Positions 576 through 8,464 of a stretch of DNA of 64,000 nt are shown here, piece by piece (within the stretch, counting starts at the first letter, position 1; every line of letters begins with the position of its first letter). Below the pieces are notes generated by a model. The model saw nothing but the letters and a program-made list of their open reading frames with translations, searched no databases and was not told the origin of the DNA. Both the position numbers and the translations under genes were made by a program. Origin of the DNA: Rhodocyclaceae bacterium (GTDB taxonomy: Bacteria; Pseudomonadota; Gammaproteobacteria; Burkholderiales; Rhodocyclaceae); assembly GCA_013426785.1 (NCBI GenBank), contig JACDZI010000001.1, positions 93,425-157,424 on the forward strand, read 5' to 3'.

Positions 576-1769
576 CTACAGCCCCCCGGAAAACGCCTGA
601 TGCAGCAGCGATTTCTTCAACTCATCCAGCGCCGCGAGCTTTTGCCGGTAGAGGGATTCGAGGCGTTGGGTTTCGGCAGCGAGGGTACTGAGTTTTGCTG
701 TCATTGCCTCTTGGACGGCCATCGGTAGTCGAGGAACTTCAAAACCGCGCAGTACCTTGAGGGAAACTGTTTTCTGAGCCGTTCCGGTCGCGCCATCGTT
801 TGCCTGCCGAACGATCTGCGGCGACATGAGCAAATAGTAGAGCCATTCACTGCGGACATCAGATTTTGGACGCACGAGGCCAATGTGGCGCTGAAAGCAA
901 AAGTCTTGCTGCTCTTTGAGAAAGACTGGAATACCAAATGAACCGGTCACCGTGTAAAGGACATCGCCAACTCTGGGTTTCTTGTTTGGCTTCAGGGAGT
1001 CGAAATACTCACGCGATACCTTGAACGTATCGGAGAAATCGATAGTGCGGGAGTCCTTGGCGACATTGCCGATGGTAATGAATGGCACACCGCTTGCCGC
1101 CTTTGGTGGTGGCATGTGGTCGCCGTCTGTAATGTCAGTCGCCAAGTCTGCAAGCGCTACCAGTTCGCACATCTCCCAAGCGTCTGCGAAAACCGCTTGC
1201 AGATGGCTTTCAAACAACGCGCGGGCATTCTGGAGGTTCTGTTCGGCGTTGGCCTTGGCGGTGGCGATGCCGTCGAAGGCTTCGTCGAGGATGGCGACGA
1301 TGCGGTGTTGTTCGGGGAGCGGGGGAAGCGGAATCGGCACTTCCTTCAGCTTCCCGCCTGAAAGTTCCTTGAATGTGGCACCCGTTCCCAAGTCGTTGAG
1401 CAGCGGAACGATGCTTGCCAAGTAGTAGTAGAGGTATTTGCAGTCAAGCTCGGCTTTCGGCACCAACCCTTTGCAACCTTGGTTGGTGGCCATCGGCACC
1501 GTGTTGATGACCAAGTGGCCTATCGGTGCGCGCGATGAAAGGATGACTGACTGAGCAGGCAGCAGCCTTGCAGAACTGTTCTGCAAGCCGGCATCGGTGA
1601 TGGTGCGCTCGGTTTGGTCGACGTAAGGCGTAGCCCGCTTTCCCATCTCGGCGGGAGTGATCCACTGATGTGGCCCATCCCAATACTCGGGCACACATGT
1701 TTTTGGTGTTCCGCCGTTGACCACTTCGCAAACCGCGTCGATGGTCTTGCGTTGCCACCCAGCCTTCAC
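576..1769 (-). CDS. hsdS: Type I restriction-modification specificity subunit HsdS
   Basis: GTG start overlapping hsdM stop; two target-recognition modules (PLPPLPEQHRIVAILDEAF; second TRD ending LDELKKSLLHQAFSGGL). The longer 669-aa ORF is an artefact of reading into hsdM. Confidence 0.9.
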   Translation of the reverse strand: MKAGWQRKTIDAVCEVVNGGTPKTCVPEYWDGPHQWITPAEMGKRATPYVDQTERTITDAGLQNSSARLLPAQSVILSSRAPIGHLVINTVPMATNQGCKGLVPKAELDCKYLYYYLASIVPLLNDLGTGATFKELSGGKLKEVPIPLPPLPEQHRIVAILDEAFDGIATAKANAEQNLQNARALFESHLQAVFADAWEMCELVALADLATDITDGDHMPPPKAASGVPFITIGNVAKDSRTIDFSDTFKVSREYFDSLKPNKKPRVGDVLYTVTGSFGIPVFLKEQQDFCFQRHIGLVRPKSDVRSEWLYYLLMSPQIVRQANDGATGTAQKTVSLKVLRGFEVPRLPMAVQEAMTAKLSTLAAETQRLESLYRQKLAALDELKKSLLHQAFSGGL

Positions 1770-3217
1770 AGCATCGCCCTGATCTTCGCCAGCACTTCCG
1801 CGCTCTCGGCATCCAGCGCGGCGATTTCGTCCATGATGTCCTGCGGGCTGCGGTGGGCGACGGCCTCGCCGCCGTTGGGGTTCTTCACCGAGAGGTCGTA
1901 GCTTGCCGTCCCGCCAGCGCCGACTTTTACCGTCCAGCTTTTCGGCGAGTCGGCAAAGGTCTTTTGCAGTTCGACAAACTCGGCGAGGTCGGCGTCGTTG
2001 AGCGGGTTGGTCTTGCCGAGGTTGCGGCCGGGGTCGAGCTGGTAGTACCAGACCTGCCGCGTCGGCGCGCCTTTCTCGAAGAACAGCACGACGGTCTTGA
2101 CGCCCGCGCCCTGGAAGGTGCCGCCGGGACAATCGAGGATGGTGTGCAGGTTGCAGCTTTCCAATAACAACTTGCGCAGGCTGACCGAGGCGTTGTCGGT
2201 GTTGCTCAGAAACGTGTTCTTGATCACCACGCCGGCGCGGCCGCCGGCCTTGAGCAGCTTGATGAAGTGCTGGAGGAACAGGAAAGCCGTCTCGCCGGTG
2301 CGGATCGGGAAGTTCTGCTGCACCTCCTTGCGCTCCTTGCCGCCGAAGGGCGGATTGGCGAGGATGACGTCGAAACGGTCTTTTTCCTGCACGTCGGCGA
2401 GGTTCATGGCCAGCGTGTTGGTGTGCGCGATGTTGGGCGCCTCGATGCCATGCAGGATCATGTTCATGATCGCGATGACGTAGGCCAGCGACTTCTTTTC
2501 GATGCCGTAAAAACTGCGGTCCTGTAGCGTCTTCAGGTCGCTGGTGGTGAGCTTGCCGGCCTTGAGATGGTCGAAGGCTTCGCACAAAAAGCCGGCGCTG
2601 CCGCAGGCGCCGTCGTAGATGCGCTCGCCGATCTGCGGCCTGACCACCTGCACGATGGCGCGGATCAGCGGGCGCGGCGTGTAGTACTCGCCGCCGTTGC
2701 GCCCGGCGTTGCCCATGTTCTTGATCTTGGCTTCGTAGAGGTGCGAGAGTTCGTGCTTCTCGGCCTGCGAGCGGAAGCGCAGCTCGTCGATGTGATCGAT
2801 GATCTCGCGCAAGTTGTAGCCGCTGTGGATCTTGTTCTTGATCTCGCCGAAGATTTCGCCGATCTTGTATTCGATGGTGTTCGGCCCGCTGGCGCGCTGC
2901 TTGAAGCCATTCAGGTAGGGAAACAGCTTACGGTCGACAAAATCGCGCAGGTCGTCACCGGTTTGCGCCCGGTTGTGGTCGAGCTTGCCGTTTTCGTTCT
3001 TCGGTGCGGCCCAGCTTTCCCAGCGGTAGGGGGCGTCGAGGATGTAGCTGTATTTCCTGCCTTCCAGCGCGGCCTCGGCCGCCTTGTCCTGTTCCAGCCC
3101 ATCAAGGTATTTTAGGAACAGCAGCCAGGAGGTCTGCTCGGTGTAGTCGAGCTCGGTGGTGCAGCCGGCCTCTTTCCAGAGAACGTCGTCGATGTTGCGG
3201 AAGGCCTGCTCGAACAT
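1766..3217 (-). CDS. hsdM: Type I restriction-modification DNA methyltransferase subunit HsdM
   Basis: 483 aa, N6-adenine MTase motifs (YDGACGSAGFLCEAF, ILANPPFGG). Confidence 0.93.
   Translation of the reverse strand: MFEQAFRNIDDVLWKEAGCTTELDYTEQTSWLLFLKYLDGLEQDKAAEAALEGRKYSYILDAPYRWESWAAPKNENGKLDHNRAQTGDDLRDFVDRKLFPYLNGFKQRASGPNTIEYKIGEIFGEIKNKIHSGYNLREIIDHIDELRFRSQAEKHELSHLYEAKIKNMGNAGRNGGEYYTPRPLIRAIVQVVRPQIGERIYDGACGSAGFLCEAFDHLKAGKLTTSDLKTLQDRSFYGIEKKSLAYVIAIMNMILHGIEAPNIAHTNTLAMNLADVQEKDRFDVILANPPFGGKERKEVQQNFPIRTGETAFLFLQHFIKLLKAGGRAGVVIKNTFLSNTDNASVSLRKLLLESCNLHTILDCPGGTFQGAGVKTVVLFFEKGAPTRQVWYYQLDPGRNLGKTNPLNDADLAEFVELQKTFADSPKSWTVKVGAGGTASYDLSVKNPNGGEAVAHRSPQDIMDEIAALDAESAEVLAKIRAML
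1905..1928 (+). repeat. Dispersed repeat copy inside hsdM
   Basis: gccgtcccgccagcgccgactttt, exact; encodes KVGAGGTA on minus. Confidence 0.9.
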
Positions 3218-5231: not shown

Positions 5232-5261
5232 TGTAAGAAATGAGCTGTCGCTTCGTCTAAT
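5232..5261 (+). promoter_or_regulatory. Candidate ECF-sigma promoter of the RiPP operon
   Basis: TGTAAG-16 bp-CGTCTAAT, about 35 bp upstream of the precursor ATG; resembles ECF-type -35/-10 elements. Confidence 0.5.
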
Positions 5262-5296: not shown

Positions 5297-5620
5297 ATGA
5301 AAAACCGTAAAACCCGGCTGATGCTCGCCACCGGCGTTGCCTTAGTGACCAACGCCGCCCTCTCCCCTGCGCAGGCGGCGGACAATCCCTTCGGGATGAC
5401 CAAGCTTGGGAGCGGCTACCAACTTGCCCAAGCCGACAAGAAAACCGACGGCAAATGCGGTGAGGCCAAATGCGGTGCCGCCAAGACCAGCGAGAAGAAG
5501 AAGGACGCCAGTTGCGGCGGCGACAAAAAGAAAGATGCCAACTGCGGCGCCGACAAGAAAAAGGATGCTTCCTGCGGCGCCGACAAGAAAAAGGATGCTT
5601 CCTGCGGCGCCAAGAAGTAA
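5297..5620 (+). CDS. HvfA/BufA2-like Cys-rich RiPP precursor with signal peptide
   Basis: MKNRKTRLMLATGVALVTNAALSPAQAADNPFGMTKLGSGYQLAQADKKTDGKCGEAKCG...(KKKDASCGAD)n; followed by DUF692, DUF2063 and DoxX genes. Confidence 0.85.
   Translation: MKNRKTRLMLATGVALVTNAALSPAQAADNPFGMTKLGSGYQLAQADKKTDGKCGEAKCGAAKTSEKKKDASCGGDKKKDANCGADKKKDASCGADKKKDASCGAKK
5495..5614 (+). repeat. Four 30-bp tandem units in the precursor gene
   Basis: Units at 5495, 5525, 5555 and 5585; last two identical over 27 nt (aagaaaaaggatgcttcctgcggcgcc). Confidence 0.9.
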
Positions 5621-5630
5621 GGCTGCCACG

Positions 5631-6473
5631 ATGACAACAGCCCGGATTTCCGGTGCTGGCCTCGGCTTCAGGCGGGAGATGATCCCCGCCCTGAAGGCCG
5701 GCGTGCCACCCCCGATCGATTTCTTCGAACTGGCCCCGGAGAACTGGGCCGGCATGGGCGGCCGTTCGGCGAAGCATCTGCGAGAATTTACCGAGCGCTT
5801 CCCCTTTGTCTGCCACGGCCTTTCGCTCGACCTCGGCGGCCTGCGGCCGCTGGATGTCGACCTGCTCGAACGCATCGGCACTTTCATGCGCGCGCACGGT
5901 ATGTCCCTCTATACCGAACACCTTTCCTGGTGCGGCGACGATGGCCACCTCTACGACCTGCTGCCGATCCCCTGCACCGGCGATGCCGTGCGCTGGGTCG
6001 CCGGCCGCATCCGCCAGGCGCAGGACATCCTCGGCCTGCGCCTGGGCATCGAAAACGCCTCCTACTACGTCGCCCCGCCGGGCGCCGAGATGGGCGAGGC
6101 CGAATTCATCCGCGCGGTGATCGGGGAAGCCGACTGCCTGCTGCACCTGGATGTGAATAACGTCTATGTGAACAGCCGCAACTTCGGCTTCGACCCGCTC
6201 GCCTTCATCGACGCACTGCCGCTGGAGCGGACCTGCTACCTGCACATGGCCGGCCATTACGTCGAACCGGATGGCCTGCTGGTCGATACGCACGGCGCAC
6301 CGGTGATCGACCCGGTATGGGCGCTGCTCGACGCCGTGTATGCGCGCGTCGGCCCGCAGCCGACCTGCCTCGAACGCGATTTCAACCTCCCCGCATTGGA
6401 CGATCTGGCGGGCGAAGTGGCGCAGATCGCCGCCGCGCAGGGCCGCTGCCAGCCGGCGAGAAAGGCCACCTGA
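5631..6473 (+). CDS. DUF692/MNIO family RiPP maturase (HvfB/BufB-like)
   Basis: GAGLGFRREMIPALKAGVPPPIDFFELAPENW ... LHLDVNNVYVNSRNFGFDP ... HMAGHY. Confidence 0.92.
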   Translation: MTTARISGAGLGFRREMIPALKAGVPPPIDFFELAPENWAGMGGRSAKHLREFTERFPFVCHGLSLDLGGLRPLDVDLLERIGTFMRAHGMSLYTEHLSWCGDDGHLYDLLPIPCTGDAVRWVAGRIRQAQDILGLRLGIENASYYVAPPGAEMGEAEFIRAVIGEADCLLHLDVNNVYVNSRNFGFDPLAFIDALPLERTCYLHMAGHYVEPDGLLVDTHGAPVIDPVWALLDAVYARVGPQPTCLERDFNLPALDDLAGEVAQIAAAQGRCQPARKAT

Positions 6474-7210
6474 TGTACGCCTTCCAGCAGTTCCAGCACG
6501 AATTCGGCCGCCACCTGCGCGACCCGCACCGCGCCCCCCGTCCCGCCGGCGTGCCGGCACGGCCCGCCGCCCTCTACGGCGAGCTGCTGCTCAACAACCT
6601 CACCGGCTTCCTCGACGCCTGCTACCCGGTGACGCGCGCCGTGCTCGGCGCGCGGCGCTGGCGCCGGCTCCAGCGCGCTTTCTTCCGGGAAGCGCGCTGC
6701 CGGACGCCGTGGTTCCGCGAGATCCCGCGCGCGTTCCTCGACTGGCTGCTCGCCGCAGACAAGGGCACTGCCGGTCCGGCCTGGCTCGGGGATCTGGCCC
6801 ACTATGAGTGGGTGGATCTGGCGCTCGACGTGATGGAGGTCGCCACGCCCGCCCACGACCCGAAGGGCGACCTGCTGGCCGGCGTGCCCGTGCTAGCGCC
6901 GGCATTGATGAATCTCGCCTATGCCTGGCCGGTGCAGCGCATCGGCCCCGATTACCGGCCGCGCAAGCCGCAATCGGTCCGGCTGCTGGTGTTGCGCGAC
7001 CGCGATGATGTCGTGCGCTTCGTCGAGCTGAACCGCGTCAGCGCGCGGCTCGTCGACCTGCTGTTGCAGGGCAGCCAAACAGGAGGCGAAGCCTGCCGGC
7101 AGGTGGCACGGGAAATCAGCCATCCCGATCCCGCTGCCGTCGTCGCGCATGGGGCGGTGCAGCTCGAAGCTTTGCGCGCCGCCGGCGCCATCCTTGGAAT
7201 CCACACATGA
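6473..7210 (+). CDS. DUF2063 RiPP maturation partner (HvfC/BufC-like)
   Basis: ATG overlaps upstream TGA; MYAFQQFQHEFGRHLRDP...YGELLLNNLTGFLDACYPVTRAVLG. Confidence 0.88.
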   Translation: MYAFQQFQHEFGRHLRDPHRAPRPAGVPARPAALYGELLLNNLTGFLDACYPVTRAVLGARRWRRLQRAFFREARCRTPWFREIPRAFLDWLLAADKGTAGPAWLGDLAHYEWVDLALDVMEVATPAHDPKGDLLAGVPVLAPALMNLAYAWPVQRIGPDYRPRKPQSVRLLVLRDRDDVVRFVELNRVSARLVDLLLQGSQTGGEACRQVAREISHPDPAAVVAHGAVQLEALRAAGAILGIHT

Positions 7211-7698
7211 AGGCCCTCGCGCGCAAGGCACTCGCCGGCATCGATGCCGGCGGACTGTGGGTCGGCCTGCTCGGCCTGCGCCTGATCCTCGGCTGGGAAT
7301 ATTTCGAGTCCGGGCTGGAGAAGTTTCGCGGCGAGAACTGGTTCGCCGAGATTCACGCCAGCTTCCTCTTCCCCTTCAACCTGGTGCCGACGGACATCAG
7401 CTGGCAACTGGCCACCTGGTCGGAACTGCTGGGCGGCATCGCGCTGGTGATCGGCCTCGGCACGCGCTTCTTCGGCGCCTCGCTGTTCATCCTCACCCTC
7501 GTCGCCATCGCCAGCGTGCACTGGCCGGCCGAGTGGGCGACACTGGCCGAATTGGCGCAAGGCTACGCATTGACCGACAAAGGCCACGGCAACTACAAGC
7601 TGCCGCTGATCTTCCTGGCCATGCTGCTGCCGCTGATCCTCGCCGGCCCGGGCAAGCTCTCCGTCGATGCGCTGTTCCGGCGTAGCATGGCGCGATGA
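7207..7698 (+). CDS. DoxX family membrane protein (HvfX/BufD-like)
   Basis: 163 aa, multiple TM helices, GLRLILGWEYFESGLEKFRG; overlaps upstream gene. Confidence 0.85.
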   Translation: MKALARKALAGIDAGGLWVGLLGLRLILGWEYFESGLEKFRGENWFAEIHASFLFPFNLVPTDISWQLATWSELLGGIALVIGLGTRFFGASLFILTLVAIASVHWPAEWATLAELAQGYALTDKGHGNYKLPLIFLAMLLPLILAGPGKLSVDALFRRSMAR

Positions 7699-8270
7699 TC
7701 TCGATCAACGATGAACTGGCTGCCTTTCGTCCCGACCTGTTGCGCTTTGCGCGCCTGCAATTGCGCGACGACCAACTCGCGGAGGATGTCGTGCAGGAAA
7801 CCTTGATCGGTGCCTTTGTCGGGCAAGAGCAATTTGCCGGCCGTGCCGCGCTGAAAACCTGGTTGTTCTCGATCCTGAAGAACAAGATCGTCGACGCTCT
7901 GCGCGGTCGCGAACGCAGCACCAACATCTCCGCACTCGCGGGCGAGGAGGAGGAATTCGACCAGGCCTTCGACCGGCTGTTCAAGGAGAACGGTCACTGG
8001 ACGCCGGCAAACCGGCCCGCCGACTGGGGCGACCCGGAGGAAATGCTACGGCAATCGCAGTTCTGGCGCGTTTTCGATGTCTGCCTGAATCACCTGCCGG
8101 CGCATACCAGCCGCGTCTTCATGATGCGCGAATTTCTCGAACTGGATCTGGCGGAAATTTGCCGCGAGTTGCAGATCAGCCAGGGTAATTGCTATGTGAT
8201 CCTCCATCGGGCGCGCCACCAACTGCGGTCCTGCCTCGAAAAAAGCTGGTTTGGGAGAGGAGAAGCATGA
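7695..8270 (+). CDS. ECF sigma-70 family sigma factor
   Basis: Sigma region 2 (LRDDQLAEDVVQETLIGAF) and region 4 (LAEICRELQISQGNCYVILHRARHQLR). Confidence 0.92.
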   Translation: MISINDELAAFRPDLLRFARLQLRDDQLAEDVVQETLIGAFVGQEQFAGRAALKTWLFSILKNKIVDALRGRERSTNISALAGEEEEFDQAFDRLFKENGHWTPANRPADWGDPEEMLRQSQFWRVFDVCLNHLPAHTSRVFMMREFLELDLAEICRELQISQGNCYVILHRARHQLRSCLEKSWFGRGEA

Positions 8271-8464
8271 TGCTGAGCTGCAAGGAAATCACCCACCTGA
8301 TTTCAGAATCCCAGGACCGCCCGCTGGGTTTCAGGCAGCGCCTCGACCTGAAGCTGCACCTGCTGATGTGCCATGGCTGTGCGAATTACCGCGAACACAT
8401 CGATTTCCTGCATCAGGCCTGTCGCAACCACCCCGCCCGCCCGGACAGGGAGAAGGTGCCTTAA
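8267..8464 (+). CDS. Zinc-finger anti-sigma factor
   Basis: 65 aa, CKEITHLISES...HLLMCHGCANYREHI, overlaps sigma stop. Confidence 0.82.
   Translation: MMLSCKEITHLISESQDRPLGFRQRLDLKLHLLMCHGCANYREHIDFLHQACRNHPARPDREKVP

Follow-up and report, generated by a model that had tools for sequence, protein, structure and literature searches.

Precursor gene and repeat array

The 64,000-nt stretch of DNA analysed here (the window; positions 93,425 to 157,424 of contig JACDZI010000001.1) comes from a bacterium of the Sulfuritalea/Rhodocyclaceae group. On its plus strand lies an hvfA-like gene for the precursor of a ribosomally synthesized and post-translationally modified peptide (RiPP), followed by hvfB, hvfC, hvfX and two predicted regulatory genes. 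The six Cys of this precursor, probably all targets of modification, are laid out as one Lys-Cys pair and four single-Cys units. The features of the gene, given with the basis of each, are as follows.

5297..5620, plus strand: hvfA-like precursor of 107 amino acids (signal peptide, leader DNPFGMTKLGSGYQLAQAD, six-Cys core); translation of the open reading frame (ORF)
5447..5476, plus strand: DGKCG-EAKCG pair, its two Cys five residues apart and each preceded by Lys; positions derived from the ORF start
5492..5611, plus strand: four 30-bp single-Cys units, Cys spacing 10; Tandem Repeats Finder and in-frame reading
5542..5611, plus strand: exact 40-nt self-match at period 30 (5542-5581 against 5572-5611); base comparison

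The full translation of the ORF is MKNRKTRLMLATGVALVTNAALSPAQAADNPFGMTKLGSGYQLAQADKKTDGKCGEAKCGAAKTSEKKKDASCGGDKKKDANCGADKKKDASCGADKKKDASCGAKK, and its leader is conserved among relatives. The initial annotation had read the gene as an HvfA-like RiPP precursor whose six Cys include four in (S/N)CG units; the family assignment is supported, and translation gives the same Cys count. The array that it placed at 5495-5614 is real, but the units in frame lie 3 bases earlier: EKKKDASCGG (5492-5521), DKKKDANCGA (5522-5551), DKKKDASCGA (5552-5581), and DKKKDASCGA (5582-5611). These are four units, as proposed under the pattern KKKDA(S/N)CG(A/G)D, although the last ends in CGAK rather than CGAD.

Tandem Repeats Finder reported 4.0 copies of period 30, with 85% matches, at 5491-5611. 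Units 3 and 4, previously described as identical over 27 nt, are in fact identical at 30/30 bases and form part of the 40-nt period-30 run. Comparing units 1 and 2 with each other, or either of them with units 3 and 4, gives 6-8 mismatches in 30 bases. When synonymous codons were drawn randomly, weighted by local codon usage, identical units 3 and 4 arose in approximately 0.15% of draws, and no more than 0.07% contained a period-30 run of at least 40 nt. Common protein sequence alone therefore does not account for the DNA identity, and units 3 and 4 likely share a late duplication or conversion, in keeping with the recent duplication originally suggested.

Cys number and array layout in relatives

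We compared the window precursor with those of its relatives in three sets: (i) set A, 76 distinct precursors read at 80 named loci and in the genus; (ii) set B, 68 further precursors from a class-wide sample; and (iii) set C, 25 further precursors from a family sample. The class-wide sample was filtered for at least two matches to [DEQNKS][GASTDNE]xC[GASN], so very different precursors are missed. Orthologs of the window HvfB, with 78-83% identity, were found in seven other species, six from the genus and one from a different genus of the family, and the closest named records include metagenome-assembled genomes of Propionivibrio and Sulfuritalea, as well as Sulfurisoma sediminicola.

Within the genus (seven species with the cluster, one genome per species), the precursor has six Cys in 7/7. 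The residues before these Cys read KKKKKK in four species, KKSTKK in two, and KKSNSS in the window, and the core after the leader spans 66-74 residues, with 68 in the window. The constant Cys number and similar core length indicate that the peptide is not expanding, contrary to what had been claimed for it. The initial annotation had itself named a repeat number fixed across the genus as the pattern that would speak against expansion; Cys number is fixed in this way, but layout differs. In the window, four single units stand in place of two Lys-Cys pairs, and Cys number is unchanged. Set A as a whole has six Cys in 51/76 precursors and four in 20/76.

The closest layouts, all with six Cys, were those of L250 (KKSSSS), L036 (KKASSS), and L038 (KKASAS; S. 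sediminicola). These three, together with a Limnohabitans precursor (L056), come from related genera and resemble that of the window in having one Lys-Cys pair followed by single Ser- or Ala-Cys units, but their linkers differ and L056 has two single units rather than four.

Single units are even in number in 53/57 of the set A precursors that have any and in 16/19 of those in set C. As a general rule this failed class-wide (19/43), and we retain it as a lineage pattern only. A tree built for sets A and C requires at least 34 changes in how many single units there are, versus seven changes of parity; the even-number pattern is partly due to shared ancestry.

The residue before Cys in pairs and in single units

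We scored a Cys as paired when another Cys lies five residues away. Paired Cys are preceded by Lys in 227/228 cases in set A and 62/62 in set C; class-wide this is weaker (339/371 in set B), and we do not regard Lys in pairs as an absolute rule. Before single Cys, Lys is found in only 74/194 (A), 33/71 (C), and 83/124 (B) cases. The contrast yields Fisher p values, uncorrected for shared ancestry, of 5e-52, 7e-14, and 6e-10 for sets A, C, and B, respectively. Ser, Asn, Ala, or Thr precedes the majority of single Cys in set A (120/194) and 38/71 in set C, with Ser the commonest in set A (95/194); the (S/N)CG motifs are thus not atypical, as they had first been taken to be.

What surrounds the Cys is retained in these non-Lys units. 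The frame [DE][GA]xC[GA], that is, an acidic residue at -3, Gly or Ala at -2, and Gly or Ala at +1, is complete in 117/120 (A), 37/38 (C), and 36/41 (B) non-Lys single units, as would be expected of enzyme targets. On an HvfB tree of 101 rows, in which many branches are weak, precursors change at least 17 times between all Lys and having non-Lys sites; the contrast between pairs and single units thus does not stem from one event, and the Lys state appears to have switched readily. Non-Lys precursors showed no tie to the active-site residues of HvfB in our comparison, in which these residues are constant. Two precursors, L214 (six SCG) and L265 (four SCA), have no Lys-Cys at all, yet the active-site residues of the neighbouring HvfB are unchanged. 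L214 and L265 are natural test substrates with only Ser before Cys.

Operon, promoter candidate, and neighbourhood

Downstream of the precursor gene the order is hvfB-hvfC-hvfX, followed by an extracytoplasmic function (ECF) sigma factor gene and a gene for its likely zf-HC2 anti-sigma factor, with gene ends overlapping downstream. The features, including a promoter candidate upstream, are listed below.

5232..5259, plus strand: promoter candidate of ECF type, TGTAAG-N16-CGTCTA, lying 37 nt before the start codon of hvfA; motif search
5631..6473, plus strand: hvfB, multinuclear non-heme iron-dependent oxidative enzyme (MNIO), 280 amino acids; PF05114, 317.8 bits, and NF003818, 385 bits against a cut-off of 360
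6473..7210, plus strand: hvfC, partner protein involved in recognizing the peptide (DUF2063 and NGO1945_C); NF050145, 253 bits against a cut-off of 142
7207..7698, plus strand: hvfX, DoxX-family membrane protein; NF050144, 137 bits against a cut-off of 80
7695..8270, plus strand: ECF sigma factor of the TIGR02943 family, its start overlapping the hvfX end; TIGR02943, 256 bits against a cut-off of 162
8267..8464, plus strand: short zf-HC2 protein that probably serves as the anti-sigma partner, overlapping the end of the sigma gene; PF13490, 30.3 bits against a cut-off of 22.2

HvfB, HvfC, and HvfX thus lie directly downstream of the precursor and all exceed the curated NCBIfam cut-offs, as in an HvfABCX-type cluster, and the Cys-rich precursor adjoins an MNIO with a DUF2063 partner, as in captophorin clusters. 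HvfB is the sole PF05114 match in the genome. Its residues R14, R15, D250, and F251 correspond to Arg15/Arg16 and Asp249/Phe250 of FonB, the active-site signature of captophorin (Lys-Cys-type) MNIOs, and the conserved His, Glu, Asp, and Asn residues that we checked are also retained.

Gene order suggests that hvf clusters may be under stress control by the linked ECF sigma/anti-sigma pair. A similar TIGR02943-family sigma gene occurs, in several orientations, in the fetched flanks of 61/80 related clusters (L032-L111), including 50 of the 64 loci over 9 kb; a zf-HC2 gene was matched in 51 of the related clusters and stands directly behind the sigma gene in 35. In the passages cited here from the survey of this peptide family, sigma genes come up for Buf1 clusters alone. 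The candidate promoter is the single match to its motif in the window (0 in 100 shuffles) and in the 3.24-Mb genome, where a reversed control pattern likewise matched once, making genomic uniqueness weak evidence. The motif is also found upstream of hvfA in two species of the same genus (L005 and L006). We rejected it as a conserved family element, as few relatives have it ahead of hvfA, and discarded matches in L036, L038, L051, and L090, which fall inside the sigma gene.

Elsewhere in the window, frames at 576-3217 on the minus strand resemble, by eye, a type I restriction-modification system (HsdM-like at 1766-3217; HsdS-like within 576-2585).

Relation to known systems

The Oxazolin/HvfA system of Haemophilus influenzae (hvfABCX) shares with the window the A-B-C-X order, scores above the HvfB, HvfC, and HvfX model cut-offs, a signal peptide, and six Cys. 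The H. influenzae HvfA, however, has three AEGKCGEGKCG pairs, whereas the window precursor, with its one pair and four single units, scored 20.9 bits against the NCBIfam HvfA equivalog model NF050188 (curated cut-off 95), and we therefore class it as HvfA-like and not as an HvfA equivalog. The Buf_EGKCG/oxazolin family (PMC12452194) likewise combines a signal peptide and a repeated Cys motif with MNIO, DUF2063, and DoxX genes. Judged by the published motif description, the window precursor departs from that family's repeated EGKCG in 17-residue repeats with two motifs each: it has no exact EGKCG, and its DGKCG-EAKCG pair is followed by 10-residue units with one Cys.

The fontiphorin/captophorin class (PMC13097082) resembles the window in the MNIO and DUF2063 partner, the [DE][GA]xCG frame, and the active-site Arg-Arg and Asp-Phe, but fontiphorin has EGKCG repeats with seven sites, whereas the window peptide mixes Lys and non-Lys sites. 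Captophorins are marked by copper binding and by 5-thiooxazole on Cys, which shifts the mass by approximately -4 Da per site and absorbs near 302-305 nm. MmrA/bulbicupramide of Microbulbifer (PMC12538549) has three two-Cys cassettes between Lys runs, six modified Cys, and Cu(I) binding; unlike in the window, all are EGKCG pairs, and Cys number ranges from five to eight across strains.

Some precursors in our samples have further features. L116, L124, L222, L231, and L268 are HvfA-like with an EF-hand-loop-like sequence between Cys motifs (e.g., DKDGDGSVSRAEF); published EF-hand fusions resemble the L116-type precursors, but in the latter the loop falls between the Cys motifs. The L034 locus carries, further downstream (L034:5472-5837), another Cys-rich ORF in which MKCGA/EMKCG motifs recur.

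Probable modification of the six Cys

We consider it probable, on comparative grounds, that all six Cys of the window peptide become 5-thiooxazole Cu(I) ligands in an exported HvfA-type peptide, for which several layouts would be interchangeable at six Cys. The gene encodes an HvfA-type (Buf_EGKCG/oxazolin, or “captophorin”) precursor. HvfC would bind its leader, and HvfB would oxidize each Cys in the [DE][GA]xC[GA] frame to 5-thiooxazole, with or without a preceding Lys. The signal peptide would export the peptide, Cu(I) would be bound in the periplasm, and the linked ECF sigma and anti-sigma factors may control the operon. The array, with one Lys-Cys pair and four (S/N)CG units, the last two apparently recent copies, would be one such layout.

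The retained frame, the precursors without Lys-Cys beside an unchanged HvfB, and the tolerance of FonBC, which accepts A, R, or T before Cys (PMC13097082), together make modification of all six the most likely outcome. FonBC also modified NVCGG substrates once, and the residue that follows Cys has to be small (PMC13097082). With one Cys of a pair changed to Ala, MmrBC remains able to modify the other (PMC12538549). Modified related peptides bind copper in published work, and we infer the same for the window peptide.

Several observations pull the other way. NVCGG substrates were only half modified by FonBC, and a peptide with a single EGKCG repeat was left unmodified (PMC13097082), so isolated units lacking Lys may be modified poorly. 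The position-3 variants named for FonBC in the cited part of that report do not include Ser or Asn. In pairs, moreover, Lys is almost universal, which suggests that position 3 is important in certain contexts. As to function, the Microbulbifer cluster showed no copper induction and a weak protective effect, and its authors are hesitant about a protective role (PMC12538549).

The strongest competing explanation, which we regard as unlikely, is that only the Lys-Cys pair is modified, and that the (S/N)CG units remain plain thiols serving as a metallothionein-like tail or a spacer, or are cut off. Both the near-invariance of Lys in set A pairs and the need of the FonBC minimal substrate for two adjacent repeats (PMC13097082) favour it. 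Plain thiols, however, would not need the acidic, Gly/Ala, and Gly/Ala positions that non-Lys units keep, and neither L214 and L265 nor the residues tolerated by FonBC fit a strict dependence on Lys.

Active copy-number expansion by repeat slippage, with repeat number differing among strains, we judge improbable. The 40-nt match in the window gene is of the kind it predicts, as are in-register exact runs of at least 40 nt in other precursors (4/76, 13/68, and 1/25 in sets A, B, and C), and some relatives reach 7-9 Cys (L045, L047); within the genus, however, Cys number is constant and core length has not increased. Drift in a weakly used gene, or identical last units as an assembly artefact, is very improbable, because, although the genome is a 241-contig draft in which collapse or expansion of short repeats is checkable from reads only, the operon is intact throughout, HvfB residues are conserved, independent assemblies (e.g., L036, L038, and L250) have similar layouts, and a 40-nt match is short relative to usual read lengths.

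Beyond modification of all six Cys, we propose only tentatively that, for HvfB-family enzymes, Cys in pairs (spacing 5) needs Lys while an isolated Cys accepts Ser, Asn, Ala, or Thr. In the betaproteobacterial lineage, where single units come in even numbers, two of them 10-11 residues apart may act as a stretched pair, a further type of two-ligand copper site that could replace the classic pair while the total stays at four or six Cys.

Significance

The published hallmark of the copper-peptide family, in the works cited here, is the EGKCG pair. A full-text literature search on the single-unit motifs returned nothing on this family among the matches listed; supplementary tables, which lay outside that search, may list the variant. 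The HvfA sequence model misses the window precursor. Single (S/N/A/T)CG units are in use across a large branch of betaproteobacteria, so surveys that rely on motifs may miss many members or delimit them wrongly. The contrast between pairs and single units, the constant Cys number, and the all-Ser precursors provide substrates for probing the way in which a multinuclear iron enzyme reads repeats in a peptide, and the same substrates bear on how many Cys form one copper site. It is the contrast between pairs and single units that most deserves tests.
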